The notes beneath the pieces are model-generated. The model did no database searches, was not told the DNA's origin, and worked only from the letters and a program-made list of their open reading frames with translations. The position numbers and the translations under genes are program-made. A stretch of DNA of 64,000 nucleotides, taken from assembly GCA_905221605.1 (NCBI GenBank), contig CAJNDS010001802.1, forward strand, positions 339,501 to 403,500. The letters run 5' to 3'. Every line of letters starts with the position of its first letter. Position 1 is the first letter of the stretch. Shown one piece after another: positions 17,401 to 58,000 of this stretch. This DNA comes from Symbiodinium natans (taxonomy: Eukaryota; Sar; Dinophyceae; Suessiales; Symbiodiniaceae).

Positions 17401-20400
17401 AGGATTTGTGCATCTGCAGCTCACGTTGCCATCCGTGCGGGTGCTGTCCGACATTCTATGGTTGCAAAACCAAGCTACAGCATCGTTTGCGAGAACCACT
17501 CTTTTTTGGAAAGCGAAGTACTCACCGTAAGGTACAGTTTTCTCCTGTTTATTCAGAATCAGGCGTTCGTTTGTTGAGGCCATCCGGTACAATGGAATGT
17601 TTTTAGGGGTGCCCGTGCTCCACGTATCTTTTTTCCATGGCCGCATTCCTTACAAAGCAAGGTTACAAACAATTCGTTCAGCCCGGGGCCACTTCACTTC
17701 ACAGGAAAACGTCAGGCCCCACGGGCCTTGTCAGCCCAAGAAAGCATGCTTCACAGGCCTACAGGAAGAGGGGTCTTGGGTTCCACACCCAAGAAGGCAG
17801 GACAGCGTTTCGACCCAAAATCCTGAGTCTTAAAACCAAGTCGAACGACTGCCCAGTGTGCCCCGCCTGTTGGGGACCTCTCGGCTGGCACCGCTCAGTG
17901 GGTCCCTCCGACGCCTGCATTGAGTGGCAAAGCAAGTGGCGTTGAGTTGGCTTCAAAAGGGTAAGTGCCGTCGAAAGCGAGGCCTGCATCTGCCATGAGC
18001 GTGCCCCCCCCCAGGCAGATGCAACCTCCGAGGCATAATCCGTCGAAAGGGCTGTATTCGCTGAATCGGTTTGTCGTGACATGATTTTGCATCATGAGTG
18101 GTAAGCTCATCCCTGTCGTATAGCAACGGTTTTAGTACTGTGTGCTATTGGTTTTATGACAGGGGGATGGGGTTGATGTGCTCACTTTTGAATTTGGAGC
18201 CAAGGAGTGGGCAGCTCTTTTTACGTTGTACGTTGCCCCGCGCCTACTTGTCGGACTCGTTCCGAGAAGACAAGACAGCCGTTACGCCTTTGTGTGCAAC
18301 GAACCGCATTCTCCTGGGGCAGTGTGCACATGGCCAAGGCATTTTGCTGCTTTGCAGTTCTTAATGCCGGGACCTTGGCCGAAGCACATGCGCGGAGGAC
18401 TCGAAGTCAGTAGCGGGATGATTGTTTTGGACACCTGGGACGGGAGGGCTCGTGTATCTCGTTGTAACGAATGACAACGTGCGAATCTTGAAGCAAGGTG
18501 ATGACCGGCGTGCTCTTTGGCTGCAGACCATACGAAGTCAACGTTCAACATTTGTGATTCATTCATTTGGGGCTCGCTCTGTTGCTGGGCATTGCAAATC
18601 ATGCAGATTTGAGCCCAACCCTCCTTGATCTTGATCCACAGTCGCAAGTAAACCCAACTTCGGAAACAATGGAACCCAAGCCTTGAACCTTCTGGGCTTT
18701 TTGGCGTTAAAATAGTTCCTTTGATGCGCGCCCCCCCAATTTCTCTTTCGTTCAGGAGCGCTGCGTTTTGCCGAGGTTCTGCCACAGCGCCATCTCCGGG
18801 GCTGCCCAGGATGAGCACCTCATGGTCCAGTCCCTCCTCCAGGAGAAGGATAAGTTCCGACGCCCGGCCGAGATCTCTGGAAAATTCCCGGGCCGAGGGA
18901 CCCAAAAAGGGCCAAACGGTGCGTCGCGATGCTTGAGGCTGTGCGTAAAGCTGTTCTGTCTTGGAGTCCAGGATGTGGCGTAGTTTCGCGTATCAAACTC
19001 TGGTTCCAGGCAGCGCAGCTAAGTTAGTCTGGGCTGTGGATTTGGATTTGGTTCTCGAAGTGGAAAACAAGGGGAGGTATTTACTTCGGTCATCCACCCT
19101 GCAGCTACTCAGCTCCTCGGCATGGGAGCCATCCTGCCATTTTCGGACACGTAATTACGGGTATTTGGCCGCAGGCTTGTGTTGCGGGACTCTCCGCTGT
19201 ACTCGGCGACTTTCTGCGGGATTCTCCGGGGTGGGCACTGCAAGGATAGTACTCCGGTAGAACTCTTGCGTGCTTGTTTGGGGCCGGCGGGACTCTCTGC
19301 GAGCTTCTCTGTGGGGGTGGGCGCTTCAGGGATGATTGCTCGGCGGACTTTCTGCGGGCTTCTCTGGGTGTTGGCAGTCCAGGGCTCAGGCCAGCAGACC
19401 GCGCGCACACCGCGCGAGCAGGCGAGGAGAATGGTTGGCTTACAGTTACACGAGGGTGGGGAATACATAAACAAATTGCATGCACATGAACATGTATTGT
19501 GTATCAACATTATACAGCTAGATCCGGATAATGTTGGCAAACCATGGGTTAGGCGCTGCAAGTGTATGCCGATTCACAACCCCTGGACCAAGAAGAAGAG
19601 GAAGAAGTACAAGGAGAAGAAGAAGAAGAAGAAGAAGAAGAAGAAGAAGAAGAAGAAGAAGAAGAAGAAGAAGAAGAAGAAGAAGAAGAAGAAGAAGAAG
19701 AAGAAGAAGAAGAAGAAGAAGAAGAAGAAGAAGAAGGAAGAAGAAGAAGAAGAAGAAGAAGAAGAAGAAGAAGAAGAAGAAGAAGAAGAAGAAGAAGAAG
19801 AAGAAGAAGAAGAAGAAGAAGAAGAAGAAGAAGAATAAGAAGAAGAAGAATAAGAAACGCACCTTGTAGATAGACATATGCTGAGGTTTTGCCAGGTTTA
19901 AGAAGGTCAAGAGTCAGCCAGAATGTGTGTGAGACAAGTGCACGCCGGAACCAGTATTCGGCGTCCGACTGTAGCTCAGGCCAGAAGTTCGAGCACCTCT
20001 TCAATGAGGACGGCGGGCCCCAAACCCTGATGCCTTGGACGTTTGGGAGTTTTAGGGGCTGTGGTTTTGCGGCCCAAAGGCAGGGTTTTCAGGTTTTCGC
20101 ACTTACGAACTTCCGGATTTCCCTACACCGGCTCGGCTTCAGTGTATGGGGTCTTGGAAGGGCCTAAATAGCTTGAATCTCCACTGAGTAGGTGGATGAT
20201 GACGGCACGGGGCGCATCACGCTCAACGAGTTCGAGCGCCACTTCAACGACGCGTCCCTGGCAGCGCTCTTCGAAGCCTTGGACCTCGGGTCCACGGATG
20301 CCTGGAGCCTCTTCCAGGAGCCCGTGAGGGTTGAGGGTTTAGGATTTAGGGTTTGGGGTTTAGGGTTTAGGGTTTGTGAGTTCCTGAAACAAAGGCTCTA

Positions 20401-20740
20401 AGAAGGTGGCGATTGTCATGTTGTGTTGGCAGAGTGTGAGGGATGTTTCGGGTCTAAAGCGGTTTGAAGCTTGGCGTCGGCAGTCTGCAATGTCGGAAGG
20501 CAAATCGGACACAGGTTTTGGATTTTAGAGTCATTGGAGGTGCAGCGGCGACAGTGGCGGGGCATGGCATGTGTTTTTAGTGTAACAGTTGTCAGATTCG
20601 GCACGTGGGTTAAGGGTTATCATGGACTGGCTCGCTTGGGCTTGCAGACCCTGGACGCGGATGGTGACCACATGATCGATGCAGATGAATTCCTGGACTC
20701 TTGGCAGGATTCACGTTCCTTTCGCCCACAGGAAACGTAG
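12155..20740 (+). CDS. Voltage-gated cation channel, one 6-TM domain, C-terminal EF-hands
   Basis: Many-exon gene. Likely N-terminal exons: 12155-about 12225 (EIRHQEIMARLDDLFRRQE, helical), 12586-about 12715 (KKMLILNGPVHTDPPTEEP) and 13248-about 13338 (GADSYELAKAFAEQPS). S1: 14244-14291 (RLVRSWAFEAFFAAAI) plus 15211-15300 (VTNTIILGVQTAW). S2: 15626-15726 (VAYAVLFTVELWLRIWADG). S3: from 15807 (LDVFVVLTSIFELIVH). S4: about 15960-16019 and 16346-about 16410. S4-S5 linker and S5: about 16491-16596, then 16839-16863. Pore: 16977-about 17060, 17136-17195 and 17268-17319 (ISGGMNW). S6: around 18200 (EWAALFTLYVA) and 18339-18365 (FCCFAVLN). Post-S6: 18776-about 18850 (VFCHSAISGAAQDEHLMVQS). EF-hands: 19985-20008, 20192-20317 and 20648-20740, stop TAG. 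The layout matches the large protist family of Ca/Na-type single-domain channels regulated by Ca2+. Ion selectivity is not determinable. Confidence 0.85.
13021..13200. repeat. Telomere-like (CCCTAAA)n tract, longest in the window
   Basis: About 25 units, mostly perfect CCCTAAA. It ends about 50 bp before the acceptor of the channel exon at 13248 and sits at the 3' end of that intron. Confidence 0.97.
13345..13450. repeat. GGTACC-family element, copy 1 (degenerate)
   Basis: It contains CCGAAATGGGG, GGGTACCTCATTGGGGTC and a right end GGTGTTTACGAAG, in the order of the family consensus. A TTTAGGG tract is inserted in the middle (13400-13419). It lies in the channel intron downstream of the exon at 13248. 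Confidence 0.55.
13651..13755. repeat. GGTACC-family element, copy 2 (reverse orientation)
   Basis: The left end GGGGGTTTACGATAATAGGG and the right end GGTACCCCTAATTGCGGAAA followed by CCCCC form imperfect terminal inverted repeats. Inside are AAATAGTAGGATCCCCTTAT and GACTCAAAGAAGGTACC, shared with the copies at 28130 and 36860. Confidence 0.75.
14449..14552. repeat. (TG)n-(TGCA)n-(TGTA)n microsatellite
   Basis: A TG run is followed by repeated ATGC and then ATGT tetranucleotides, all alternating purine-pyrimidine. It lies in the channel intron 14292-15210. Open frames read through it (poly Met-His-Ala-Cys) are repeat artefacts. Confidence 0.95.
16073..16292. mobile_element. Dispersed element with G-rich core, copy 1 (220 bp)
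   Basis: The left end TTTTAACGCTACGCGACC continues into CGCCTCGGCCTGGCCCAGC. The right end is GGCCCAAGGCCTCGGCGGAT. The two ends are imperfect inverse complements (CCGCCTCGGCC against CCGCCGAGGCC). The core, about 16123-16200, is nearly all G with single T or A interruptions. It sits inside the 16020-16345 intron of the channel, between the two halves of S4. Copies also lie at 40009-41170 and 51113-51292. No coding capacity, so it would be non-autonomous if mobile. Confidence 0.7.
16346..16410 (+). other. S4 voltage-sensor exon
   Basis: Joined to the preceding exon (ends 16019) it reads ALRLVRIMKIARLVRIVR and then VGKVLRFIRALR, with Arg or Lys at every third position over about nine turns, the hallmark of S4. 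The junction needs a GA donor (intron 16020-16345) to keep frame. The exon's 3' end is approximate. Confidence 0.85.
17136..17319 (+). other. Pore-loop exons of the channel
   Basis: Exons 17136-17195 (NEELSRMFGTLSDSMNTLLR) and 17268-17319 (SISGGMNWEGPADALNQ) join over a 72-bp GC-AG intron. The FGTL...SM.TLL..ISGG.NW pattern matches the P-loop and selectivity-filter region of protist single-domain channels. The second exon ends at a GTAGG donor. Confidence 0.85.
19591..19857. repeat. (GAA)n triplet array
   Basis: About 85 to 90 GAA units with a few interruptions, purine-only on the + strand. It lies in the channel intron between the post-S6 exon (about 18850) and the first EF-hand exon (19985). 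It yields poly-Lys/Glu/Arg open frames on + and poly-Phe/Leu/Ser on -, which are artefacts. Confidence 0.97.
19985..20740 (+). other. C-terminal EF-hand pair of the channel
   Basis: Exons 19985-20008, 20192-20317 and 20648-20740 join as KFEHLFNE, then VDDDGTGRITLNEFE, then SLFQ-TLDADGDHMIDADEF. Both loops have canonical 12-residue Ca2+ ligands: D-D-T-R-T-E and D-D-D-M-D-E at positions 1, 3, 5, 7, 9 and 12. Both introns have GA donors. The TAG stop is at 20738-20740. Confidence 0.88.
20325..20375. repeat. TTTAGGG tract at an intron 5' end
   Basis: Starting 7 nt after the GA donor at 20318, the intron reads GTGAGGGTTGAGGGTTTAGG and then several TTTAGGG units. Confidence 0.9.
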
Positions 20741-21069
20741 CAGTAGGACTCGGTCTGACCCTGAGTAAGTAGAGTCTTGTTCATGGTTGCTTGCCTCGGA
20801 CTTGTGTGCCATGTGAGTTCTGAGGATAGCTGCATCCGCATGCGCGGACCCCCTCGGTCTGTGGACGTTTGTGCCATCAAGCGGCAGGCGAATAAGATTC
20901 GGAGGTGGGACCTTTCAGAGGGAGTGCGCTGGGAAGATGCAACTCGCAGCGCACCATGCCAGAGCCAGTTCAACTAGTGGTGAAAGCTTCCAAGCTACAC
21001 TTCGCCAAGTGACATTTGTGGTGTGAGGCATGTGACAGACCTGTCAGATGCGCTTGACGACGTGATGCA

Positions 21070-25100: not shown

Positions 25101-26970
25101 CTGACCGTGAACTGGCGGGCTTCCTGCAGAGCTGGCACGGCGCCTCCATGCAATGTGGTCATGGGCCCTTCGAAGCCGCCCCCAAAGTTTTTTAAGGACC
25201 ATGGCCAGGCTACTAAGAGGCCATGGGCTTTTTCTAATATGCACCTTTTGAGTAGGATCGGGGGCCTTCTCTCTCCCGGACTGTCATGTCGGCTGTTTAG
25301 AGGTTTTGCCATGAGGATCCAGCTTCTGTGAGGCTTCCGCATGTCACCCATCTACAGCTTGACGTCAGGATGACTTCGATGAGGCCTACTACGGGCCGCT
25401 GACGAAGCGGCTGCATCCTCAGAGGCCTTTGTTAGCTAACTGCAACATCTGCGCCACCAGAATCGTTTCCTCAAAGCGCCCCCCTTCGGCCCCAAGGCTG
25501 CTCATCGACACATGCTGGGACGCTGCATCGGAAAAGCTGATCCTCAGCTGCCACCATTTGCCTGCCCCCTTTGGTGTGTCATTGAAGAAGTCTTGGTTGC
25601 TTTTTGTGTGTTGCAGGTTTTACGTACACACAGCACAAAGTTCGGCTCTATAACAGCACCTTGCGGCTAGCCAAGGAGCGTGCGCCTGGAGTGCAAGGCT
25701 TTCCTGTACAGGCGGCCTGTGTGGCGACCCCAAGAAAGCCCCAGCGGGTTTCTCTTCCATGGCCTTGTGTACATGTCTTGCAAGCTCCATGTGCTCAGTC
25801 CTCTTGATTCTGGTCCTGATGTTGGGTGCACTAAAGACTATATGGGGCCGTGCTAAGACCGGAAAGGGAAAGGGAGCAGAAAGTGCCAGTTGGGTAGATC
25901 TTTGACGGCTGGACTCTTAGACGCTGGGTTTCGGGAGGCCCCGCTGGGCCCTGAGCCCTAACTCCTACACCCAAGAACCTCCTGAACCCTAAACCCTAAA
26001 CCCTAAACCCCAAACCCTAAACCTTAAACCCTAAACCCTGAACCCTGAACCCTGAACCCTACACTGCAAACGCCCGACAGCTGCAGGATGGCTCGGGTTG
26101 CGGTTTCTGCACTTGTGGCCGGCGCACGCGGTGTCATCGACCCTGCAGACCTCAGCGACGCCGGGCACCCCGGGGTTTTCTGGGGGTTTCAGGGAGGCGC
26201 AGCTCCGACAGGTGTCTCCAATGTTTTAGGGTTTAGGGTTTAGGGTTTAGGGTTTAGGTTCTGATCAGAACCCTAAGGCCTGCTTGCCTTGGATTTGCAC
26301 AGCTTGCACTGTGTTGGCAGGGAGCGGCATCCTGTCCGATTATCAGACGTTCTCGTGTTCTTCGTGATGTGGTACGTGTGTTTGCCTCATGTTCTCTGGA
26401 ACTTTTTTGGCTGTTACCTGACTGCACACAGGAGGCTGTGAATGGTGTAGGTAAGCCGTCTCATGGATCCCCCTTTCATGGCGCCCACGCTTGAAGAGCC
26501 ATCACAATCAGTCAAGTATGCCAAGTTTTGCTGCACCTTTTCAATTCTCCCTACCGCCGAACCCCTCTGAACCCTGAATCCTAAACCCTTAAATCGAAGC
26601 CCTATAACCTCTTAAACAGTTAAACATCCGTACCGTTGCGTCCTGGAGCTCGGAATGGGCCCAGGCCTCCTCTCCGACCTTCGCCAAAGCTATGCGAAGA
26701 GTGAAGGGCAGGAGTGGCGGGTCGGGTTTTGGGGGGGTTTGCGTTGGGAGGTTGGGCCACCAAGCACCCGAATGGCCCTCAAGCCCCAAGCAGAGGGCAC
26801 TTCTGCCTGGAGTTGGGATTCGGAGAGCTTTTTTCGGGGGGGTTTGGGCAGTTTTTAGGGTTCGGCGTGGAGCCCTGAAGCAGCCCTGAAGCTCCTCAAG
26901 CCCTGGCGAGGATGGAGCTGGCCCCGCCCAGTGGTTTGTTCCTTGAAGAGGTTGCGTACCCACCAGAAGC
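22130..26970 (+). CDS. TruA/PUS-family tRNA pseudouridine synthase
   Basis: Isomerises uridine to pseudouridine in tRNA. The exons follow the TruA order: 22130-22181 (VAYDGSGFRGWQPLGVE, the family's YDG-G-GWQ motif); 22657-about 22740 (ARTVHRTLAAALM, the TVQ-x-x-LE helix), in frame across a GT-AG intron; 23500-about 23560 (VAHVDLLSLPDLDADTL); about 24215-24258 (SFHARRSALHK); 24393-24456 (RYRYDLLLRPRPSPFEARFV); 24858-24917 (AVGDLPAATIAEAAQRLNGQ); about 25369-25422 (DDFDEAYYGPLTKRL); 26087-about 26160 (MARVAVSALVAGARGVIDP, the R-hV-x-LhxhGxG segment); and 26911-about 26970 (ELAPPSGLFLEEVAYP, the C-terminal APP-GL-L motif). The exon with the catalytic Asp (consensus RTD-x-GVHA) should lie between 22740 and 23500 and was not found; it may be a very short exon. 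The 5' start and 3' stop are uncertain. Confidence 0.85.
23390..23478. repeat. Degenerate (CCCTAAA)n tract before an acceptor
   Basis: Repeated ACCCTAAACCTTAA units end about 22 bp before the acceptor of the TruA exon at 23500. Confidence 0.85.
24130..24152. repeat. Poly-C run, 23 nt
   Basis: Pure C, between two TruA exons and about 65 bp upstream of the FHAR exon. Proline-rich or glycine-rich open frames across it are artefacts. Confidence 0.95.
25984..26063. repeat. (CCCTAAA)n tract before an acceptor
   Basis: About 11 units, the last ones CCCTGAA, ending 24 bp before the acceptor of the TruA exon at 26087. Confidence 0.95.
26224..26260. repeat. (TTTAGGG)n tract after a donor
   Basis: Five units on the opposite strand sense to the tract at 25984. 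It follows the TruA exon that ends at about 26160. Confidence 0.93.
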
Positions 26971-28129: not shown

Positions 28130-28223
28130 GGAGTTTACGAAAATAAAGTACTCAAATATAGACCCCCAAGCAGTAGGATTCCCTGATATAAGGACCCCAA
28201 TAAGGTACCCCAAACCCCCCATG
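28130..28223. repeat. GGTACC-family element, copy 3 (reverse orientation)
   Basis: Reads GGGAGTTTACGAAAATAAAG, then AAGCAGTAGGATTCCC, then ACCCCAATAAGGTACCCCAA, and ends in CCCCCCATGTG. The same order is seen in the copy at 13651. Confidence 0.8.
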
Positions 28224-32900: not shown

Positions 32901-35900
32901 CGGGTTTAATTATGGTTTAGGGCTCAAGATTTCGGACTTGGTTCGGATCTGTCATGGCAGGCAGAGTGAGCTGTTTCAAAGGGTTCTAGGGGTTGAGGGT
33001 TGTGTGGTTCGAGTCCTGCCTGGGCCTTTGATGCCAGTTTTTCCTCAAAGCCGGTAGAGCTCCGGACACATCTCAGGCACCTACAACGGCATCTACCCCT
33101 CGAAGCCGGTGTTCTGGAGGGAGTCTGTCCAAGCTTCTTGGCTTTCGACCCCGCCGAGGGTCCAGGGCTGGGGGTTCGAGGGCCCGGTTAGGATTTTTTC
33201 AGGGAGGTGGAGCGACTGTCGGCATCTTGCGAAGGGTTGCTGGTAGCTGACGAGCGGTTGTGGTTCATGCAGGGCTCCGTTGACGGACTCTCAGGGCTCC
33301 TTGGTTTCAAGATCCTTTCATGCTTGAGGGTTTCCATGTTTGGTCTAGGACAGTTTGAGGTGGGCGGTTTCCCCCCTGGTGCGCCTGAAGACATCATGCT
33401 TGGGGTTTGCTATTGGTGTGCTGCCCCGGCACTTGGACACAATTTCCGAAGTGCCCGCAGATTTCTTTTGGATTTCTTTCCGGGTGTCCGCTGATTCCCC
33501 TGTGAGGCTTCTCAATTTCCAGCAATCCTTCATGGGCCCGGGGCCCTTAAGGCCTATCCCGAAACTCCTCTAAGCCCCTAAACCCTCAGGCACCTTGCAG
33601 TAGCCAGCCCACCACTCAATGGGTAACTAGGGATCATATCATCCCTAGGATTAGATACAGAGATCTGAGGCATCTCATTCCTACTTCCCCACTGAGAACG
33701 AATTACGAGCTACCTGACCTCTACTTCCTACAAAAGAACTAGGTACTGGCTCGGTTATAGGGTTCCTCCCAAGTTCTTCCCGAAGCTCCGCACTGCCCTC
33801 GCCCAGTTGGGCAGCTCACCGCGCATTTCCCTGCAGGAGGCGGGTCCGAATGCGGAGGGCAGACCCCCCCGACATCCCCAAATCCCCGAAAAAGTTCAGG
33901 GCTTAGGTGAAATCCTGAGGTTCAGGGTCGTGAGACTTCTCCCTACGAGTGGCTGGAGGGCGATCATTGGACTTCCGTTTCAACACTTCGGCTTTCTCAC
34001 GGGTAAGATTGCTCCTCATGTCAAAGCTTGGCTTGATGGGCTACTGTTCTGGGCCTTTCTTCTTGAATCATCTTCAACCGGCAGACGAGCAGACATGGAG
34101 CCGGTGAGAGGGTTTAGGGTCCAAGGCGCAGAGTTGCATCCATCCTCCTGTGGCCTAAGCCGTCCATTTCCCTAGATTCCCAATTCTGAAGCTCGATGCG
34201 GCCCCAGCTGCACTTGTCTTTTCCGGGGCCATATGTGTTCATTCTTTGCTTAGCCCCCTGTGCTTGCCCTCACCAAACACATCATCAGGCTGGGTTGCTC
34301 ATCGTCGAGGCGGCCATCAAGTGGTGGCCCGGCTAGGGAGATGCATAGGGTTTGGAGATGTTTCGAGTTTAGGCTGTGGAATCTTGGGGGTCGGAGGCTT
34401 CCTGGGGCGCAGGGTGGTTGCTCAGCCGGGGCGTGGAATAGTTGCCTTGCATGTGGTGCGAGGAAGAATTCTTGGGCCGCTCCAGATTCCAGTTTCACCG
34501 AACCAATGATCTTCAGATGATCTTCAGTCTCAACTTCTGATCCTCAACCCTCGACCCCTTCTACTCCCTGGACCCTAAACATTGAAACCGAAACCTCAAA
34601 CACTCTGAACTCCACAAGAGCTGGTCGTCAGAGAGCACGCTGCTCTTCTATGGGGGTAGGGGGTTCGTTTAGTCTAAGCGTTTTGGGGCTTAGGGTTTAG
34701 GGGTGCGTACTCAGATTCCCCGGCCAAGGATTGAGGGCCTAGACGACGATGTCAAGAAGGCCGTGTATGGCCTGTCACCCATGCCGCTGGGCTGAGGAGG
34801 GGCAACTCCTCCATCTGAGCTTAGGTTGGCCTGTCGGAGTTTTGGGGGTAAGGCATAGGTCGAGAGTGCAGACTCGTCGTTTTTTCGATGACCGCTCAGG
34901 AACGAGCCCGCCCACCTGGCTGGATTTCAGATGCTCGCCCGGATCTGTAAGCCGCGGAGGGTCTGAGGGTCCTCAGAATGGAAACCCTAAACGCTAAACC
35001 CTAAACCCTAAACTTTAGGCCCCAAACCCACTTTGCTGAAAGGAACCCCACCTTTGCTCATCCCGACGAAGTGCTGGTGTGGCTGGCGGAAGCCACGGAC
35101 CTCTTCAAGAACTCCAAGTTGCTCGGTGTTCCCTCGAGCCCTAAAACCTAAACCCTAATCCCTAATCCCTAATCCCTAAACCCTAAACCCTCCAATTTGA
35201 GGAACAAAGTGAACAAAATTGCTCTGAGGTTGGTCGACCAGGCTGGGCTTCTTGTGCGTTCGAGTGGGCGAGTTGAGCTGGAGCTCGGCAGAACTCCAAG
35301 TCTCGGGGGCTTGGCTATTTAAAGGATCAGGGGACTTAGTAAGCAGGGATATCATTAGGGCAACTATAGATACAAGTACTTGTAACCCCAAGTAGGTTAC
35401 TTTTCACCCTACTTCGTAAAGCTGTGTTGCTGTGTTGGTGGAACCTTGGAGGAATCTGGAGTGGAGGGTGGGTGACAGTTCTGTAAGTAGGCGTGGATGG
35501 CCTGAATGTGACTACAACGTTACATCCTGGTCAGGGCATGAAGATGTACATGCAGGTCATCGAGAGCCTTTGTTGCACTTGGAAAGTCTTGCAGGTGCTT
35601 TGCAGGTAGGCTGGAGTTCCCAACAGAGCCAGAGTAGGCTTGACGGCGGAACGGCCATCTGTCTGCTGGTGCGGGCCTCTCGTGCTCAAAGTAGGCCTTT
35701 GAACAGGGTGAACAGGGTGCAGCAGCTCGCCAGAGTTTGCTCACAGACGGTTGGCTGACAAGTGATCCGTCCCTTTTGAAGATCCAACAGGTCTTAGTCT
35801 GTATGCGTGGCTCACCTTTGATACCAGTAGAGTGTCTACTGCGAGGCACTGTGGTAGGCCATGCTGTTGCTGTAGGAGATCCAGCATGAGTAAACGAAGC

Positions 35901-36102: not shown

Positions 36103-36166
<64 letters not shown>

Positions 36167-39100
36167 CGGGGAGTGGAGTGGGGAGTGGGTGGGGGGGGGC
36201 TGTGGAGGGGCTGCACATAGCAAAGCTGGCATAGCATCTCTTGTGCAGGGCGACAGACTTGCCAGACTCAAGACTTCTACAGTGAGGTTCCTTCTTGGTG
36301 GAAGAATACCACGAGCAAAAAGGATCGCGAGACCTGGGCCGGTGCCTTACACAAGAGCCCGCTGCTCCTAAACTCCAAAACTTCTGCCCCAACAAGAAGC
36401 CTAAACTTTAAACCCCTGATCGCTGGTAGCAAAGCCTCAGCCATTCCTTTGCCTGCCTGGCTTTTATTTCTGCGAGAGGCAGTGTTTGACATGCACTGGT
36501 ACACCGCCTGGGGCACGAAGGCTCACGGCGAAGGGGGAGTGGCTTTGACAGGTCGGCATGCCTCTGCGCGTTTTGAGGAACCCCCCACTAGCCACTGTAG
36601 CTTGAAATTAGCCAAATGTCAAAAACCTGGTTCAATTCGATGCTTTCCGGACCTGAGCCCTGAACCCTAAACCAACAGACCTTGAAGCCCAAGGCCTTGA
36701 AGCCCGGTGAAGCCCTCAAAAGGCTGCCCTCCTCCCGGGCGAAGCGGTCCTCTGCAGCCGGCCCTTGGACGAGATTGTGGAGGCCGACTCGCGAAGGGCT
36801 CCGAGAGCAAAGGGCTGAGAACATCTGAAAACCCTCCTTGTGGAGGATAAACCCTAATACGGGGGTTTCCGATATTCAGGGTACCTTACTGGGGTCCTTT
36901 AAAAAAGGAATCCTACTATTTGGGGGACATGTGCGGCAGATGAGGCAGAAGTGCCATCTGCTTGCCACACGAAGCGATGGCGCGTCACTGAGTCAGGTTT
37001 AGCTAGTTCTGCAGGTTCTAAGGGAGTCATACGGTTCTGCAGCTGGCATTTACGCCATAGACTGCAGGTTCTGGGGCCAACAGAGTTGCATCCCAAGGCC
37101 CGTGAATAGGTTAGAGGTCCTCTGAGACTTACACATCGTTGTCAGGCCCCTGTCTTCCCGAGATCCCACCAACAATCTTGGCGCAGGTCTTGACCCCGGG
37201 CATTGTCGGGTTTGCAAAGAGCTTTGAGGCCATGGCGAACTTGGTAGGTTTCTATGCTTGTGCACTTGCTCTGTATCTCCCCTAGCGGCCCTCGCACTTG
37301 CGTGTGGAGAGTGGCGTCACAGATTCGGAGTTTTGCGTCTGGCTGCGCGGGGCGTGTGATAGGGGTCAAGTTGGGTCATGCAACATGTGTGCTTGCCACG
37401 CCCTAGCACCTATCAGTCTCCAAAGCACCCCCCCCCCTCCCCCCCCTCCCCCCCCCCAAATCCTGCTGTCACAGACGCCATCGGACACCCCGAAGTCTGC
37501 TGGCCAGGAAAATTTTGATGGCCAGCGAGCCACTTCCGTACCCCGGCCAAGTCCGCACTCTGCATCTCACCGGTTCTTTGTTTGGGAAACTGGGAGTGTG
37601 TTCAAAGTTCAAGGGTTTTGGGGGTTTTGGGGTTTCAGATTCGGGTGGTTCTCTTGATGAAGGGGAGTGGTGCTCCTCATCTCACATAAACAGCAGGCTG
37701 TTCTGACGGGCGTGAGGATCTTGGACTCTGACCCTTCGACTTCAAAGCTTTGCCTTTGAAGGTTTCAAAGTTTCGGGCCAGAACCTCCCCCAACAAACCC
37801 TCGACGCCTCAACCTCCTGAACCCCAAACTGCAACCCCCCCCCCCTCCTTCCCAAAAAAACAAAAACAAGGCCTAAACCCTATAAACCCTAAGCTAAACC
37901 CTACATTCCCTTTACAAACTTTTACAAACACCCTGCCATGGATGGGATCGCTGCAGGAGTTTTCAGCAAGCACGAACGCAGATGCCCTCGTGGCTCGACT
38001 CGTCCTGGAGTTGGGGGGGTTTAGGGTTTAGGGTTCAGGGTTTAGGTTTTAGGGTTTAGGGTTTAGGGTTTAGGGACTTCGGAGTTTTGGTTCTAAAGGT
38101 CTCTAGGTTTCGCCACGAGCCGAACCCCTGTGCTGTCATTCGGAGGCGCAGTCTTTCAGGGAATTTGTGAAAGTCGAGCTTACCATCCTGAGATGACAGG
38201 CTTCGAGCCGGCATCGCATACTCGCAAGCACATCCTGCTCTGTGCCGAGGTGGCTTGCAGCGACACCGCGATTACCAAGGCCTTCATGCTGAAGCAGGCG
38301 AAGAGTGTCAAGCCCTAAGCGGACAATATTCCAAGGCCAACAAGGCCTGCGCCCAAGTAACGCTCTGAAGCGCATCGAGCTACGGAACTGCCCTCAGACA
38401 CCACAAAGAAGCTACAGTACCCCAAATGCAAATTCCAGTTGAAACAGTTCATTACATCATGTGATCCTCGCAGGTGGAGGTCATGCAGCTCCTTGGCCTA
38501 AGGGAGGTTCTTTTGAATCTGAGAAGGCGAAATCCGAAAGCATCGAGCTCAAGAGCCGCAAGCATTGGGATGTTCCCCCTTATACTAACAGTCCTTCATA
38601 GGGGTTATAATCGAGGGTATTATAGTCCCTATTAAGGAGTAGGGGGATCATCCCAACGCACGCCTCTCAAAAAGGGGCAGTGGGTCACAGGGAACCCCAA
38701 CCCGTTTCAGGGGCGAGTTTTGTATTTCACTTTGGGACAACCGACAGCTGGGAGATCTTGGACTCGATGGTTCTGGGAGGGCAGGCTTCGGCGACGGCGA
38801 TGCTGAGGTGGTTTTGTTACGCTGCGCGCAGCCCCCCGCCCACCCCCTCCGGCTATGAGGTGCTTCCATTGCTGGGACCCCAACTACATTTACATCTCAA
38901 TGCCCCAGATGCGGAGATCTCTAGCCCATCTTTTGTGCGCCCCGTCCTGGCTTCCCGCCCTAACGCTTGCATCCCAGAGCCCTTCACTTTCGCCAACCCA
39001 ACTATCGCGGAATCTGTGGGGTCCCAAACCCCTTCCTCCTGCACACTCAAAGTACGTCTCACACAGGGACATTGGCACGAAACCCAGCACGATTGTCATT

Positions 39101-39654: not shown

Positions 39655-39655
39655 G

Positions 39656-40103: not shown

Positions 40104-40113
40104 AGGGTTGGGT

Positions 40114-40152
<39 letters not shown>

Positions 40153-44483: not shown

Positions 44484-44590
44484 GGTATTTCCCAAAAGTG
44501 GGGGCTGCCCCGTTTATACCCCAAATAGAATAGAAGCCCCTTAAAGGGACCCTCCAAAAAGGGTTCCCCTATTTTCGGAAACCACCATTT
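44484..44590. repeat. GGTACC-family element, copy 6 (diverged)
   Basis: Reads TATTTCCCAAAAGTGGGG, then CCCCAAATAGAATAGAAGCC, then AAAAGGGTTCCCCTATTTTC, then GGAAACCACCATT. The order fits the family, but the core is GGTTCCCC rather than GGTACCCC. Confidence 0.6.
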
Positions 44591-46380: not shown

Positions 46381-49300
46381 ATCGGAAGACGACTGTAGGG
46401 AGAGCCTGAAGCTCCTGGCCGAGCTCCGCCTTGGAGCGAACCTTTGCGTCCAGGGAAGTTATCCCCCTTGAAAGCGGATGGGCAGCGAGCCCTCCCCGGA
46501 TGCTGAAGCCCATCGATGCCCTCTACTGTACGACGATCAAGGCTGCGGGCAAGAACTGGCAGCTGGCCCTTCTCCTGTGACTTGGCAGAGTCAGTGGGCG
46601 CAAGCCGAAAGGACAGCCTGTTTTACTGGCAGCAGGCCTTTGGCTCAGAAGCCTCGGCTTCCCCCCCCGTTACCTCTTACGCTGGCTCCTTAGTCCTTCG
46701 TACCCCAACTCATGGTCCGGACCTTTTCGAGGGAAGGAGCCCAAGAAGCCCAAGGAGCCCGACAAACCCATTCAGAGAGCTACCCTTTTTAAGGTTCAGG
46801 GTTTTTGAGGGCTTTAGGCGTTTTAAAGGTGTTAAAGGTCTCAAGGGTTTTAGGGGTTTAGGGCAGTTGAGGGTTTACAGGGCTTGATTCAGAGAACCCT
46901 TGAGGTTCCTGGAGGTGGGAGAGCGCCAGCTGCCGTACGATGTGCTGTCCTTCGGGGCCGCCGTCAAGGCCTCTCAGAAAAAAGATATCAGCGGCCGAAA
47001 AAGGGTTTTAGGATCGGGCTCTGGCCCTTGTAAACCCGCAAGCCTATCGGGCTCTAGGATCTTAGGATCTTCGGGTTTTTTGGGGAGGTTTGCGCCTCTG
47101 CCGGGCGTTGGCAGCTGGCGCTGTGGCTTCTGTGACTTGGCGCAGAAGGGCAGTGATGTAGTGGCTTAGGGCAGGTAGGCCTTTATTCTGTTTCCGGATG
47201 TGGGTTTCTAGCCAGCAATTGAGAGCTCCCAGCGGAAGGATCTTAGAAAGGCATGCTTGCCTAAGCCGATGTCGTGGATGTTCAGGACGCAGATGACAGA
47301 AGAGCAGCTCCGAGGAAATGCCATCGTGTGCCTCAGCTTTGCACCTTTTCAGGGCTTAGCCGAGACCCGCAACCCTAACGTCGGGGTGATGCATGTCAGG
47401 GGCATCTAGAGAACATGTCTGCCCCGGGTTCGAGAGGGAGTCAGAAGCACAAGTGTGCTTTTAGAGCCGGTTGGCTTCCCGAAGCACTACTGGAATCCTT
47501 GTCCACAGCTGCTCAGAGGTGCAGCGCAGCCATCACAGCCTGCACTCGAGGCCGGGGGGGTCCCTGGCCACCGGCTTCTTACCATCACACCTCGGAAGCC
47601 AGGCGAACACTGGCCGGATGCTGTGGCTCTCTTCGAGGGGATGAAGAGCCAGCAGGCGGCCCCTGCTCCTGTGCGATCGCAATGCCTCTGTCGTCATCTG
47701 CTGGATTCTCAAATTCTCCGACTTCCTCGCGTTTTGCCTTCCTGTCCATTTCTTACTTCTTGCCTCTGCCATGGCGCAGGTACAGAGCGACATCGTTGCT
47801 TGCAATGCGGCCATGGCGGCTTTCGGGTGCCTTCGACAGGAGTAAGGGAACGGTGGAGCGTATGGAGTTTTTGCAGCGTTCTGAATATGCAGTAGGGTTC
47901 ATATCAAAGTTTTGTTGAATGTACAAAGGTCTCTTGGACGGTGCACGTATGTGTTTTCTGAGGATACTGAGTAAGAGCAACCCTACTTCAATTGAGGGTG
48001 TTCAGGTTTTAAACCCTAAACCCTAACACCTAAACCCTAAGCCCTAAGCCCTAAGCCCTATAAACCCTAAGACCAGGGCTGGTGGCTGCTGGCTGCACTC
48101 CTTACAAATGCTGTCTGGGGCGGCGAGCAGCCACAGCTTCGGGACCGCTATCAGCGCCCCGGTTGATCTGATTGCAGGGGTACTTAGCTTCTTCTTCTTC
48201 TTCTTATTATTTTTTGTTTATGGTTATTATTATTATTATTATAGCTTTCGCCCTGGCCCAGGCGCCTGCCAAGGTGCCACGCAGTGGGAGGCTGCACTGC
48301 ATCTGCTCCCTTCGGCTGAGACGCGAAGTGAGCCGACGCTCGGAGCCAGATCTTCGCGCAAGAGATGCCTTCAAGCAATTGACAGGTTTAGGGTTTAGGG
48401 TTTAGGGCTTAGGGTTTACTCCGATGTCCCTTACGAGACGCAAGGATCTGCCGTCCCGTTGCAGTGCTGGTAGCGTGCTTGCGTTCGATTTTCTTAACCA
48501 GGCAGCAAGACAGCCCAGGCCCCGAGCAAACGTACAAGAAACGCCATAGGAATTTCTCTTTGCGGCTACTGAAATTGCCTTTCCAGGAATGCCTTCATGT
48601 ACAGCGCGGCCATCAGCTCCTGCGCGAAAGGCACGGCCTGGCAACTGGCGATTTGGTTGCCGCCAGGTCGCAGGTCTCGGGGTTCGGTTGGGTTCGGTTG
48701 CAGAAAACTTTACAGCGCCCTAGATCGTCAGAGTGGTTTAGGCAAAAGGAAACGGAAGAGTGCGAGCTGCATCGGCATTCCGCCGCCAAGGGTTTGGTGA
48801 GTTGTTCAGAAAGCCAGAAGTGTTCAAATCACGTTTTTCCCAGTATGGCCAGGCTGTAGGCAAGGTCTTGGTACATGTTTAGTCCGACACACGTAATTAG
48901 GGCGGAGCCCCAAACCCTTCCAGCAAACCTACAGGCTGTCAGAGATGCAGCTTTCGAGGCCAGATGCATGTGTTGTTAGGGCTTCCCACAAGAGGCCCCA
49001 AGCCCCTAACCCTGGCGTGCAGCAGCTTTCAAGGGGGCGACGTGAGCGGAGGAAAGCCCCACGACCTGAGACCCAAAGCCCTATGACCTGGGCCCCAGAG
49101 CCCCAAACAGTCAACTCGGTTCAGCTGCAGAAGTGTGCTCGGGGAGTGCCTCCTAAAACCTACAATCCATGCCGGTAGTTTGGGGAAGGAGTTTGGGGTG
49201 GGGGCGGGTCAACCCGAGCCTCGCAGGCTGAAGAGCAGCCTCGTAGCGCACAATGCGGCCCTTGCTGCATGTGTCCCGACTTCCGAGCAGCTGCTGTGTT

Positions 49301-51950: not shown

Positions 51951-53789
51951 ATGCTCGCCCCAGCATTCTCCTTTGCGGCCTCGACTCCAGTCGCTCGAAG
52001 CCTGCAAGCGCAGAGCTTGGCGGAACCCGCAAAGCAATCTGCGCCTGGCAGCGCCCAACAGCCTGGAGCAACCCCGTCTTTCCTGGCGATGGCTGGGATC
52101 GCCGGCTTGGCAGGCCTGGCCCAGCGCACGAAGGCCACCAAGGCCACCAAGGCCAAGTTGACGGCTCGCAGATTCTCCTTTCAGATGCCCCAGATGCCCT
52201 TCATGCCACCACCGGACAAGAAGACCGTGATCATTACCGGAGCCTCGTCTGGCCTTGGCCTGGCTGCAGCTAAGGAGCTGGCAGCAACGGGGGAGTGGTA
52301 TGTCATCATGGCCTGCCGGGACTTCCAGAAGGCCGAGAAGGCAGCCAAGGAAGCGGGCATGTTTGCAGATTCCTATGAGGTGCTCCACTGCGACCTGGCC
52401 TCCAACCGCAGCGTTCGTCACTTTGTGGAGGGATTCCACGCTTTGAACAGGCCCCTGGATGCACTTGTGTGCAATGCGGCCGTGTACTTCCCCAATGCGC
52501 ACAAGCCGGGAATCTTCCTCCCGGGCCTTTTCGCAGGAGAGGGCCCTCGATATTCTGCCGATGGCCATGAGCTCAGCTTCGCGGCGAACTACCTCGGACA
52601 CTTTCTGCTGTGCAACCTGCTTCTCGAAGACCTGAAGCGCAGCACGGTCAAGCCCGCACGGTGCGTTATCCTGGGCACAGTCACAGCGACCGTGAATGGC
52701 GCGGAGTTGGGAGGAATGATCCCTCCGCTCGCGCATGTTGGGAACTTCGAGGGGCTGGAAAAGGGCATGAAGGCACCCGTGTCCATGCTTGATGCGCATG
52801 AGTTCAATGGTGCCAAAGCCTACAAGGACAGCAAGGTCTGTGATGTGATGCTCATGAAGGAGTTGCACCGCCGGTATCATGACCAGACGGGCATCGTCTT
52901 TACCTCCCTCTACCCAGGATGCATCGCAGAGACTGGGCTCTTCAGGGAGCACTACCCACTGTTCCAGCATCTCTTCCCGGCCTTCCACAAGTCCGTCACC
53001 CGCGCCTACGTCAGCCAAGAGGAGGCAGGCAAGCGCCTGGCAGCATGTGCTCCCTGCATATGAAATGTTATGTTGTTTTCTATTTTTCTATATTGTATTC
53101 CTGTGTAGGGCTTTGGTTCCCTAGTGTGTGGGGGGTCACACGTTGCTTCTTTGGGGTCTTCAAGCAAGCAGAGGCTTACCCCAGACCTCACACACCACCA
53201 AACCCCTAAGGTGGGGTTAGGGGAGTTCTTCGGATTTTGTTTTGTGCTTTGGGGTTTGGTGTTGTGTTGGGAGGTGCTTTGGTTTTGGAATTCTATTTGG
53301 AATTTCGGCGTGGGATTTGGGAGGTGCTTTGTGTTTTTTTTGGATCGTGTCATGGAGCATGGGGTTAGCTTGTCGGGTGTGCTTTGTGCATTGTGGGTTT
53401 GGAAGGGTTGATTTAGCAGGCGGGTTGAGAAATGGGGTGAAAGCGTACGGGTGGGGGTGGGGTCGGGAAATGAGTGTGCGGTCTGGGGCCAGCCACTGCT
53501 TTCGCCCTTAAGTGGAGAGAGCGGACCGCGTGCTGAGAGAGTTCACACCGAGGTTGCGGATGAGCGGTATGCGACCTCCGGCTCCTACTACAGCTGGGGA
53601 GGTGAGGCAGGAACGGGAGGAAGTGGAGGCAAGGATGCGGTGGAGAACAAGGACAAAGAGCTGGACTGGTTCATGAACTATGGCAGCTTCCGCACACTTT
53701 CCGTCGACGAGATCGGGGGAGAGGCTGCTGATGACGCCCGATGCCAGAAGTTGTGGGATCTCAGTGAGAGGCTTGTGCAGACCAGATAG
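51951..53789 (+). CDS. POR: Light-dependent NADPH:protochlorophyllide oxidoreductase
   Basis: Reduces protochlorophyllide to chlorophyllide in the plastid, using light and NADPH. Two exons, 51951-53042 and 53553-53789, join in frame over a GC-AG intron to give about 442 residues. The NADPH site TGASSGLG is at about residues 96-103, CNAA follows the fourth strand, and the catalytic Tyr-Lys pair is in AYKDSK (about Y291, K295). The C-terminal exon ([13 protein letters not shown], then [13 protein letters not shown]) matches the POR tail. The first 85 or so residues ([20 protein letters not shown], then a hydrophobic [14 protein letters not shown] and a KATKATKAK stretch) look like a plastid-targeting region. 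ATG 51951 is the first ATG after the in-frame TGA at 51915. The long, little-interrupted coding exon contrasts with its neighbours, which may mean recent retroposition or simply strong expression (inference). Confidence 0.95.
53043..53552 (+). other. GC-AG intron of the POR gene
   Basis: Starts GCATGTGC after CTGGCA and ends CACACCGAG before GTTGCGGATG. Without splicing the frame stops at 53063, losing the POR C-terminus. T/G-rich throughout, with GGGGTTTGG-like words but no perfect TTTAGGG array. Confidence 0.88.
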
Positions 53790-55055
53790 GAGCTGCTTGG
53801 AGAAAATGAGAAGATGTGGATGCAGGTGTCGATGCTTGCCATACGACGCCTGAACATCAACACATCCCCCTTTTTAATGTCTGAATTCGGTGCCAAAACC
53901 ACGTTTCCGAGCTTCGGCTTGTTTCAAGATTGGGAGCTCGGCCGCCCCCCGTGAGCGGCCGGCCTCCTTGGCGTGTGGCCTGTGGCCGCTTTCTGCCTCT
54001 GCGCAGCGCCGCCGTTTCAAGTGGTTTTTGAAGCTCGGCCCGGCTACGGCCATGGCCTCCAGTCACCTGCAACTGTGTGTTCGAGGTCTGTATACCCCAC
54101 TACCAGTAGCACTATTATATGTGAAGTGCCCCGAAGCCTTCCGGATGCAGGTGCTGTGCACATCTTTGCACCCTGCAGCAGTGCATGCAGGCATTGCCTG
54201 TCTCGCGCCTGCTGCTTTTGCGCCACAGTATTTGATTCATAAACTCCAGCCGTAGGCGCTCGCAACGAGCAAAAGGCCATGAGTGAAGACGTTCGTCCAT
54301 GCACTGCTGGAACCTGACCAAACTTAGTGAGAATCTCTTCGGCCCTTTACTAACATACAAGTTTCCTCCTTGCCATAGCCGCAGCTGCAGCCTTAATGGC
54401 TGCAGCCTTAATGGCTGTGTTTTGGTGGCTCGTCTCGTGACTTGGCCCAGGCAGAGGGCTTGGCATTAGGCCACGCCCTCGGCAGCCTGCGGGACGTCGG
54501 CCACTGGCAGCGAGGCAGATGTCGGGTTCTTGTGCAGAAGCTGGCCATGTAGGTTCCGCATCAGCAGAGAAGGTGATGGTGGGAACTCGTGCGCACAGCC
54601 TTGGAGTTTGACCCCTCTGTTCTATTCCGTGCTTGGTCAACACACGTTTCGGGTTTTCGGGGCTAGGGTTGGACACAGTTTCATGTCTTGGAGTCTACGA
54701 CTTTCACGGTTTTGGCTCTTGGCGAGATATTGCCCCTGTTGTGACGCTTGGGTTCAGGCTGCCATTTGGTGCAGGAGCCCGCGTTTGTGCCGTTGTAGGG
54801 GGTGAGGGCTTCGCAGAAGCGGCTTGAGAGGATGATCTGAAACCTGGAAGTGCGTGCCCTTGCGTGCTTCGAGGTGCATGGAGAGCTCCAAGTGGGGTCA
54901 AAAATGGCAAGACATCAGTCGACATGAGTGCTTCTGTCCTTACTTGGGGGTCCTGGGCCCCGAATTCCACCGAAGTCCTGAACCCTAAGCCCCACACCCT
55001 GAACCCTAAACCCTAAACCCCAAACCCTAAACCCTAAACCCCCTGAACCTTGAAG
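53790..55055. other. Gap after POR with a possible PPR remnant
   Basis: No firm gene. A frame at about 54447-54550 reads AEGLALGHALGSLRDVGHWQ, then VLVQKLAM and TAG, faintly PPR-like (HWQ.. helix), and could be a remnant or an exon. A (CCCTAAA)n tract lies at 54980-55044. Confidence 0.35.
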
Positions 55056-58000
55056 ACCCCTACGCCCTCGAAAAGAAACTCGAGGAGCTGCAGTCCCAGC
55101 GCACCCTCCTGACTGCTGAGGAGCAGTCCACGGCCCCCTGGCATAGCTACCTCTCTTCAGGGTTTAGGGTTTGGGGTTTAGGGTTTAGGGTTCAGGGTCT
55201 AGGGTTCAGGGTTTAGGGTTTAGGGTTCAGGGTTTAGGGTTCAGGGTTGGGGCCTTAGGGTTCAGGATTCAGGGTTTAGGTTGGGTTGAGGGCATAGCGT
55301 CGTTGCAGGGCTAGGACCCATCAGCTGCTATGTGTTTTTTCTTCTGGTGCTGCCTTCGCCTTGTACTCGATAAGATATATTATATGCCCCTTTCAAGAGA
55401 AAGAGGCATCCCTTTTTATATTTTGCATTCCTAGGTTTATTTGGGGCCCAGTAGAGGTTCTTCATGACATCGCACGTCGTGTCTAAGGGTCGGAGGTTGT
55501 CTCGGCGAAGGCGTGCCAGTCATAGACGGATCATACAAGACGCGATCCCAGGGAGCCCAAGATTCCGGCTGTAAGGGGTATACAGGCTGGTTTTAAAATT
55601 CGGACTTCTATATGACTATATGGTTCCATCAAGGTATTTTGGGTTTCTTCCTTAAGGCTGTGCGGGGCATTGGGCTTCCAGGGTACCGGGCCTGACATGT
55701 CAACCGACACAGCAATTGCCCGAACAAGGTCATCTCCATGTACGTGGCTTCGTGAGCACAAGTTCATGACCCCACACTCTGGCGCTTCATTCGCGGATTC
55801 TTCAACATGATGCAGGGGCTGTGAAGATCGTGGCCGTTGCATGCAGCATAAACCCGAAGCCTAAAAATAATGGTTTGCCTCCGTGCCTGTCAGTAGACAT
55901 GTGGCTGCTCGAACAAAGACTTCTGGCAGCAGCCAGTTCTTACTTTGCGGTGGCGTTGCAGCTTGCTTTGCAGCTTCCCACCTTGTGCAGGGGTGCGGTT
56001 TACGGGGTTCAGTCTAAGCTTTTTGGGCTCAGGGAGTTGTAGGGTTGAGGGTTGAGGGTTTAGGCCCAAGCTTTGCCGCCCAGTTTTCCATCTGTGAGAG
56101 ATGCAAGAAAGCCGCCAGTCGGAGCAAAGACAGAAGCCCCGAACCCTTGTTCGCAGGGTGCCAACTTGGAATGGTTGTGGTTTCTCCTATCGCTTAATTC
56201 TAGGATCCCCTCCCCCCCTTCCCCCCCCCCCCCCCCCCCCCAAAATTCTAGGATCCCCTCCCCCCCCCCCCCTACGCGCAAGAAATCGTTGAGGGTGGTT
56301 GAATTATATGCCTGGCGAAAGGTTTAGGGGTTTGAGGTTCAGGCTCAGGTTGGGTTCTCCATCATCTGAGCTTCGCAATGGCTTCGGTTGGGGCGTTTAG
56401 ATGTAAACTTTTGCTTTCGCAGTGAGAAATCCTTCGGGTTTAGGAGGGCTCCAGAACCGACATCGTTGGCGATTCTCCTCGAACCGAACACCACACTTCG
56501 TACACCCGAAGCCACGAAGCAGCAGAAGGGGTCTTCGTGTCGCGCCTGATTTCCTCAAGCCCCGAAGACCCTACATCACAACCCCCAAACCCTAAGCTCC
56601 AGACCCAAAGTCCCAGAGTCCCAGAGTCCCAAAGCCCCTAAACCCTAAACCCTAAACCCTAAACCCTAAACCCTAAACCCCAAGCCCTAAGCCCCAACAA
56701 ACCCCCAAATTCCCCAACCCCAAGCCCTAAGCCCCAACAAACCCCCAACTTCCCCAACCCCAAGCCCTAAGCCCCAACAAACCTCCAAATCCCCCAGCCC
56801 TCAAACCATAGGCTGTGGAGGGCCTAGTCGAGCTCGGTGCCGCCAAGCAGGCCAACAGTCGCCCTGAAGCAGGGTTCAGGGTTTATAGGGCTTTAGGGTA
56901 TACAGAGTTAAGGGTATTAGGGTTCTGGGTTTACGGTTTTAGGGCGAGCTGAGATTGAAGGATTTTCGTGGGGTTTAAGGACTTAGTGGCTTCGTGGTGG
57001 GATTTGGGGGCTTAGTTGTTGCTTTCGGGATTGGACTAATGACCCAGGGTTGCCGAACACCCAGCACAGCACACCCAGAGACATGAGAGACCAAACACCT
57101 TGGAAGCCCAAAAGGGTTTAGGGTTAGGGTTTAGGGTTTAGGGTCTAGGGTCTAGGGTCTAGGGTTTAGGGTTTAGGGTTTAGGGTTTAGGGTATAGGGT
57201 TTAGGGAAACCTGGCACTCGCCCCGGTCCTAAAGGTTTAGCGTTTAGGGTTTAGGGTTTATCAACCTAGAACTGGTTTGGGGCTTCATTGGGGTAGGTTC
57301 GGGTTTCGGGTTTTAGGGTATGGCCGCCCAAGGCTGCCTTAGCACAAAACCCGACACCACACAGGCTTTGCCCAACAGGATCCCCTGAACCTGAAACAAT
57401 ATATATCCCCTAAACCCTGAGCCCTAAACCCTAAACCGTAGAACCTAAGCCCTAAACCCTAAACCCTAAACCCTAAGCCCTAAGCCCTAAGCCCTAAGCC
57501 CTAAGCCCTAAGCCCTAAACCCTAAAAACCCTAAACGTATGCTTCGTGGTGGAAGGCTGCGGTGAGCCTGCACTCGGAGATCAAGTTTGTGTTGTGCGGC
57601 GTCCTTGGTCGAGATCTATTTTCTTTCTCCCTGCTAGACAGACCGCTGAGGTCTCCGTTGTGTCTCGGCGTGGATAAGATTCGCCTGGACCTTGGACTAA
57701 ATTCGTGAGGGAGCTCCAAGAACCATGGGAGCCATGCTTCCCGATGCTGGACATGCGATGGGCAGCAATGCTCATTGCAGGCGAGTGACGAGAGAGCTGC
57801 ACGGCGCGAGGTGGGGGGTTTGCACTGACAGCCCGGCACAGATGTTAACTTGATCCTGTCAGGCGCGCATCTCTGCTTCACGAAGCTTCCAGGAGGGAAA
57901 GCTCCGCCAGACGGCGGGGAACTTAACTATCTGCCATGTACATCCGGTTTTCCAAATCAGGGTCTCTTTTCGTGCTCGAAGTTCTTAAGGCTGCAGCTGC

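Follow-up and report, generated by a model that had tools for sequence, protein, structure and literature searches.

Telomere-type repeats point outward from exon-sized segments in the genome of the dinoflagellate Symbiodinium natans

We examined a 64,000 bp stretch of Symbiodinium natans DNA (contig CAJNDS010001802.1, positions 339,501 to 403,500; here referred to as the window), together with the rest of the genome assembly, and found that short internal arrays of the telomere-type unit TTTAGGG flank exon-sized segments with a fixed polarity. The array to the left of such a segment tends to read CCCTAAA and the array to its right TTTAGGG, both pointing away from the segment. This polarity is tied to an exon-sized spacing and extends genome-wide, the segments between outward arrays are enriched in coding signal, and the same arrangement was seen in two genes of known sense. 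Here we refer to tracts of CCCTAAA sense as C and to those of TTTAGGG sense as G, an outward pair being C..G and a convergent pair G..C. An excerpt of PMC11453091 gives TTTAGGG as the telomere unit of dinoflagellates.

The window (54.7% G+C from base counts), which starts 339 kb into its contig, holds 73 TTTAGGG and 99 CCCTAAA units. Twenty-seven tracts of at least 3 units each were called in it, away from chromosome ends, and are therefore interstitial telomeric sequences, that is, tandem telomere units inside chromosomes. In the genome searched (759,417,921 bases in 2,543 contigs), the triple unit was matched 1,185,204 times forward and 1,184,385 times in reverse (overlapping matches), the two senses being equal, compared with 41 and 33 matches of its reversed control. 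Tracts covered 11–27% of six of the seven 10-kb regions that we sampled from seven large contigs and 6% of the seventh. On the other hand, none was called in a further 10-kb region surrounding a CCT gene (L058), and 3 C-terminal exons of the chaperonin (CCT) gene in L057 had no called tract between them; thus, the trait is not universal. The seven regions, the window, L057 and L058 made up a set of ten regions. Arrays averaged about 10 units in the sampled loci, where degenerate units were common (124 TTTGGGG and 98 TTCAGGG vs 1,251 exact units). Pooled tract junctions tended to begin at GGG, a start toward which the tract caller itself is biased.

Neighbouring tracts 60–169 bp apart in the window were C-then-G in 4 cases and G-then-C in 1 (sign-shuffle p = 0.041). 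Across the seven regions, 38 of the 45 neighbouring C-then-G pairs lay at 60–169 bp, as against 10 of the 43 G-then-C pairs; when signs were shuffled in 20,000 trials, the C-then-G count at this spacing averaged 15.3 and reached 27 at most (p = 5e-5). Genome-wide, two CCCTAAA units followed by two TTTAGGG units across a 95–125 bp gap were matched 163,885 times and the reverse order 53,725 times (ratio 3.05). The order flips at gaps of 15–45 bp (3,488 C..G vs 8,523 G..C, ratio 0.41) and is nearly level at 300–330 bp (143,516 vs 134,098, ratio 1.07). As these genome-wide figures are raw exact two-unit matches, with several per tract pair, the ratios were used instead, and the raw C..G count is high at 300–330 bp since long tracts contribute extra matches. 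Such counts of sense and spacing were made for the telomere unit alone. Counted by eye among the matches listed, 235–587 kb of contig C1 holds 49 distinct C..G and 10 distinct G..C places at the 95–125 bp gap; if that share holds, extrapolation from this one contig gives about 80,000 C..G places in the genome. The first-pass annotation, made from the letters of the window, had reported outward polarity around several exons, and this observation is confirmed and is genome-wide in reach.

All tract pairs of the ten regions, neighbouring or not, gave the same picture. At 60–169 bp there were 44 C..G, 13 G..C, 5 GG and 10 CC pairs; at 0–59 bp there were 2, 8, 2 and 3, and at 170–1,999 bp 148, 150, 137 and 179, respectively. 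Extrapolating the density per base found past 170 bp gives about 9 pairs per class at 60–169 bp, and the G..C, GG and CC classes together had 28 pairs where about 28 were expected. Since C..G is in excess while the other three classes match the background, C..G pairs appear to have been added rather than left over by a filter. At 170–299 bp, opposite-sense pairs were low in both orders (7 and 7) in comparison with same-sense pairs (16 and 15). A tract was followed by one of opposite sense with a probability of 0.60 after C and 0.67 after G, which matches the expectation for exon edges filled independently. It should be kept in mind that the outward rule looks identical from either strand, which is why orientation alone cannot show dependence on transcription, and, being its own reverse complement, it is compatible with an origin at the DNA or at the RNA level.

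Apart from a correction at 48266, described below, the tracts were found at the places given by the first-pass annotation. The predicted exon at 55048..55155 (plus strand; LEDPYALEKKLEELQSQ...), annotated as 55056-55155, lies between a CCCTAAA-type tract of 8 units (54983..55047, minus) and a TTTAGGG-type tract of 17 units (55156..55292, plus); its open frame reaches both tracts and its coding score exceeded that of all 60 shuffles, and it had no Pfam match. Similarly, the segment 26064-26224, which covers the exon annotated at 26087, is bounded by a CCCTAAA tract of 11 units (25987..26063, minus) and a TTTAGGG tract of 5 units (26225..26259, plus), its own coding signal being not significant. 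Around 56814 we found a CCCTAAA tract at 56636..56709 (minus), 95 bp away, which grades into CCCTAAG-type repeats up to about 56800, and a TTTAGGG-type tract of 7 units at 56875..56944 (plus). For the exon at 37957, the right-hand tract was located as 8 TTTAGGG units (38020..38075, plus) next to the segment 37940-38018; the left-hand one is a degenerate C-stretch only. The likely exon at 35027-35138 has CCCTAAA tracts on both sides (34985..35026 and 35139..35187, both minus), in agreement with the annotation, which had listed the second tract as an exception. It offers a natural test of whether a wrong-sense tract harms splicing. Further along, TTTAGGG tracts at 57117..57256 (plus) and CCCTAAA tracts at 57408..57535 (minus) form a convergent pair.

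In order to see whether the bounded segments are exons, coding signal was scored with a codon model built on 46 frames placed by homology (from 46 of 48 loci, two being dropped for stops). Of the C..G segments of 60–200 bp, 17 of 43 scored above their dinucleotide shuffles with a rank of 0.05 or better. The corresponding figures were 39 of 300 for segments taken elsewhere (Fisher p = 7e-5) and 6 of 34 where the segment lay between neighbouring tracts of other kinds. In a separate run, 12 of 48 segments elsewhere showed coding signal; because some of these segments score as coding too, any individual exon call is weak, and what matters is the contrast. We also compared the two sides of each tract, requiring 110 clean bases per side and counting an exon's two tracts separately. 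Among 195 tracts with clean flanks, whether members of a pair or single, the predicted inner side scored above the outer one in 116 cases and below it in 79 (Wilcoxon p = 1e-4), with the split being 82 to 56 in the random regions and 21 to 5 in the window, and a coding score of at least 9 was reached by 43 of the 195 inside vs 18 outside. Coding signal is thus enriched in the segments between outward tracts. A splice-aware caller, whose score rewards a G after AG and a G before the donor, found 16 of 49 C..G segments significant. Their acceptors lie 0–49 bp past the C-tract, 13 of the 16 being AG|G, which is partly built into the score, and their donors range from within the G-tract to 44 bp before it; by these distances, a tract may directly adjoin the splice site or lie within the intron, a few tens of bases from its end. 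Ten likely exons, nine flanked or adjoined by tracts in the expected senses and one being the exception at 35027, were searched against Pfam: none exceeded the cut-off and one match was sub-threshold. The frames for the Pfam search of the window had been chosen by an earlier codon model, built on 21 of the 46 loci, in which minus-strand hits were misread. One of the ten was weakly RRM-like in a PDB search (17 matches listed, all hnRNPs, E 0.07–0.83), and the three plus-strand frames of locus L060 had no Pfam match.

Two introns could be placed by homology, in genes whose sense is known. In the dynein gene of locus L010, where the dynein stalk domain lies on the same strand, the protein reads ...DLCIVDPMYQ up to an 81-bp GC-AG intron (3702-3782) and resumes with FSLDWFIAMFNQSI. 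Its paralog in L009 has ...DLCNVEPMYQYSLEWFYAIYEQAI in one uninterrupted frame, and removal of the intron gives MYQFSLDW, corresponding to the MYQYSLEW that L009 encodes without interruption. The intron contains AAACCCTAAACCCTAAACCCGAAA and ends with CTGCTTTCAG, the C-tract stopping 11 bp before the intron end (TTTCAG|G). Downstream, a GC donor is predicted, with a G-tract 44 bp further on. The peptide of the L010 exon by itself had no PDB match at E 1, and the exon is identified through the comparison with L009.

The second intron is in the window. An EF-hand exon at 20192..20317 (plus), ending ...DAWSLFQ, showed a weak Pfam EF-hand match (E 0.0015, below the cut-off) and agreed, on visual comparison, with the unbroken frames of two paralogs, L043 (L049 is the same place) and L045. 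It is followed by a GA-AG intron at 20318..20647 (plus), which begins with GAGCCCGTGAGGGTTGAGGGTTTAGG and carries a G-type tract at 20331-20372, 13 bp after the donor; no C-tract was found at its 3′ end. By comparison with the paralogs, the next EF-hand exon runs from 20648 to 20740 (plus; TLDADGDHMIDADEF... to the stop codon). Splicing as CAG|ACC gives F-x-[ST]-L-D as in the paralogs, and both paralog frames run through the position of the intron. The annotation had described this exon as having a tract on its 3′ side only, and indeed none lies upstream of it. As the removal of either intron restores the paralogous protein, both would be spliceosomal introns, judging from these alignments. 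In each of them one end follows the outward rule, and the opposite end lacks a called tract. CAG stands on both flanks of the two introns, which could be read as a target site duplication but is given by ordinary splice context as well.

Two predicted PPR exons in the window, both read by eye, show what the repeat could contribute to a splice site. Exon A (48077..48153, plus; ...SFGTAISA) and exon B (48262..48385, plus; CQGATQWEAALHLL...) fit the PPR motif when joined over a predicted, tract-free GC-AG intron at 48154-48261; Pfam gave no confirmation of exon A. The predicted donor of exon B, CAG|GTTTAGGG, would be supplied by the telomere-type repeat itself, and 4 TTTAGGG units follow at 48387..48414 (plus). 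A degenerate CCCTAAA/CCCTAAG tract at 48010..48074 (minus), missed by the tract caller, is followed by a predicted acceptor CCTAAGACCAG|GG. The annotation had placed opposite-sense tracts around a single exon at 48266; its G side stands, and its C side belongs in front of exon A, a separate predicted exon upstream.

The first-pass annotation had also proposed that many introns begin with TTTAGGG-type and end with CCCTAAA-type sequence, that the two ends could pair, and that the introns might be copies of one element with telomeric terminal inverted repeats. What we see is a tendency of exon edges and not a property of every intron; the outward rule belongs to each exon edge rather than to whole introns. 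Masking the tracts and comparing 58 loci and the window all against all by blastn, a small sample, we found no intron interior shared between loci among the matches listed (60 of 148), which were paralogous genes, repeats within one locus or short repeats of about 60–150 bp. Full-length similarity among many copies, by which introners are recognized, was thus not seen among the matches listed for these 58 loci and the window. Repeat variants were hardly more alike within tract pairs than at random loci (mean cosine 0.169, variant shared in 0.39): G..C pairs more than 200 bp apart had a mean cosine of 0.224 and shared a variant in 0.50 of 24 informative pairs, and the tracts across an exon-sized segment had values of 0.163 and 0.35 of 37. 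The lengths of the two tracts of a G..C pair were uncorrelated, and the 200-bp outer flanks held no inverted repeat beyond the unit, save one telomere-like 11-mer. As for pairing, one predicted intron of 1,081 nt with tracts at both ends folded end to end at -509.7 kcal/mol, roughly the first and last 150–180 nt being paired (a fold with no shuffle control), in line with the proposed pairing.

The reading that we favour, with a probability of roughly 40%, is that DNA ends on the exon side received telomere-type repeat, growing outward, while introns arose or breaks were repaired, and that splice compatibility and pairing preserved it. Breaks in or beside coding sequence would have been repaired, with the repeat being added 5′ to 3′ outward on the exon-side ends either by telomerase or through capture of telomeric DNA. 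Introns would be made or replaced edge by edge, the sequence in between being unrelated filler. As to retention, GGGTTTAG may supply or tolerate a GY donor, the C-type ends would precede a normal AG|G acceptor, and pairing between both intron ends could draw the splice sites together. TTTAGGG running outward 5′ to 3′ is the polarity of telomerase. Its growth outward from DNA ends would produce the observed pattern without further assumption, and selection for pairing would do likewise; of the origins suggested by the annotation, telomere-type DNA at break ends fits the polarity best. Fused healed ends are expected to appear as convergent pairs with little between them, and at 15–45 bp such pairs outnumber divergent ones (8,523 vs 3,488). 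A more far-reaching version, in which telomerase or telomeric DNA is an intron-making machine, breaks being capped outward with TTTAGGG, joined in line and spliced, would make exons resemble mini telomere-capped chromosomes and give intron ends one universal pairing code; we consider it rather unlikely.

Several observations weigh against the reading of outward addition. Short convergent pairs are few in comparison with those at 95–125 bp (8,523 vs 53,725), and both ends of a healed break should carry tracts, whereas the dynein and EF-hand introns are one-ended, which together argues against simple healing and fusion. The genes of the paralogs compared were picked up through their long open reading frames, which makes intron loss as likely as gain. 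Most C..G segments had no significant coding signal in the three tests made (29 of 49, 26 of 43 and 33 of 49). Among the 31 tracts of gene-anchored loci, the inner side scored above the outer one in 13 and below it in 18 (p = 0.81), and a score of at least 9 was reached by 5 inside and 8 outside. Of the 16 significant splice-aware donors, 11 sit 8–44 bp inside the segment and not flush with the repeat, and two segments (L060:4820 and L064:2081) were assigned to opposite strands by the codon model and the splice-aware method. The tract at 35139 has the wrong sense, and the whole reading is based on the DNA sequence of one genome.

Perhaps the arrays, whatever their origin, were kept by selection as a zipper of intron ends, the G end pairing with the next C end and so defining the intron. 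This is unlikely, yet it deserves serious weight: it accounts for the independence of edges, the one-ended introns, the orientation and the excess at exon size, it agrees with the end-to-end fold, and introns with inverted repeats at both ends that form hairpins are described for Amoebophrya in excerpts of PMC7789003. However, within G..C pairs the tract lengths are uncorrelated and variants are not clearly shared, the sample has no excess of such pairs at intron-size distance (150 vs 148, 137 and 179 at 170–1,999 bp), and the C and G tracts of one exon could pair too and hide the exon. A splicing filter, through which arrays insert in both senses and the wrong ones near exons are lost, is improbable, as it should remove pairs, while the other classes are near background (28 vs about 28) and C..G is in excess (44); it also leaves the position of arrays beside exons unaccounted for. 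Its logic would be that G arrays before an acceptor offer a decoy TTTAG|G and that C arrays cannot give a GT donor. The equality of the two senses genome-wide, the level C..G and G..C counts beyond 170 bp and the low opposite-sense classes at 170–299 bp speak for it, as do the single telomeric insertions at repaired breaks documented in mammals (excerpts of PMC2246262). Pure forms of the splice-site argument fail on orientation: supply of splice sites alone predicts G-sense at both ends, TTTAG|G being usable as an acceptor, and avoidance of decoys alone predicts C-sense at both.

A single family of transposable introners with telomeric units as terminal inverted repeats is quite improbable, given that no common interior was seen in the sample, the two ends show no clear sharing of variants, tract lengths are uncorrelated, the outer flanks lack further inverted repeats apart from the 11-mer, and both checked introns are one-ended. 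It has in its favour that a G start and a C end amount to terminal inverted repeats, and that introners with terminal inverted repeats and 4-bp target duplications are reported from Symbiodinium microadriaticum (excerpts of PMC9860276). Least probable, in our judgement, is ordinary microsatellite expansion from seeds next to splice sites, with no role for telomerase or pairing. The common degenerate units and the abundance of other simple repeats in the window speak for it; against it, donor and acceptor motifs are not mirror images, so that seeds alone would not give opposite senses at the two ends of an exon.

Large (AAG)n, poly-G/poly-C and (CATAAA)n arrays lie at 19590-19856, 36103-36199, 40782-40985, 43564-43855 and 51186-51236 of the window. 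A non-telomeric interspersed repeat of about 75–105 bp, which resembles a miniature inverted-repeat transposable element or an introner, occurs in both orientations at 38565-38638, 59495-59599 and 63875-63976, and also at L041:837-939, L059:6404-6488, L063:5665-5768 and L064:235-334, most loci being roughly 76–83% alike. Two further short repeat families are present at 44486-44588 and at 13672-13754 (also 28155-28214 and 36861-36926); both are common to the overlapping loci L056 and L057, and the first occurs in L065 as well. The stretches 1277-1672 and 5761-6252 are related coding sequences (573 bp aligned at 78%), and their cellulase match was weak and below threshold. Two long intronless frames, encoding a PPR protein (7617-9035) and a short-chain dehydrogenase (52080-53039), lie beside intron-rich genes and have no called telomeric tract inside. 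In L057, positions 8117-9931 are a tandem repeat of about 126/252 bp, a mostly open stretch which scored as coding with the earlier codon model. In the window, neither Rfam (at gathering scores) nor a tRNA scan gave a match, and a plasmid collection searched with 54900-57600 had none either.

The mass origin of introns is a long-standing question, and the known mass sources are transposon-like introners. A genome-wide telomere-unit signature of fixed polarity along exon borders would suggest that introns have a second source, in the maintenance of chromosome ends or the repair of breaks; alternatively, it would suggest that one universal repeat draws splice sites together. In ciliate macronuclei, telomeres are added de novo at fragment ends, and gene-size segments there likewise carry outward telomere repeats at both ends; those are true chromosome ends, whereas the segments in S. 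natans are joined in line inside long contigs. The other comparisons are with excerpts of the cited papers. Interstitial telomeric sequences at double-strand breaks in mammals (PMC2246262) are short internal arrays too and are explained by telomerase acting at the break; by contrast, S. natans has more than 1 million exact triple-unit matches per strand, with a fixed polarity around exon-size segments. Plant telo boxes (PMC3022908) are likewise telomere units placed non-randomly in genes, but they consist of about one unit and are richest in 5′ untranslated regions, whereas here whole arrays bound exons. Among the titles and abstract openings listed by searches on telomere units in dinoflagellates or introns and on Symbiodiniaceae introners, none mentions telomere units at the ends of introns. 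Introners with inverted repeats are described as commoner in free-living dinoflagellates (PMC10522408), and telomeric arrays may have been counted among the inverted-repeat introns of free-living Symbiodinium. The closest likeness is to the dinoflagellate introners themselves (Amoebophrya, PMC7789003, where the inverted repeats lie at intron ends; Symbiodinium, PMC9860276), which are also abundant, with inverted complementary end repeats and unusual splice sites; here, unlike in those, the end repeat is an array of telomere units, the sample showed no common interior, and every exon edge acts on its own.

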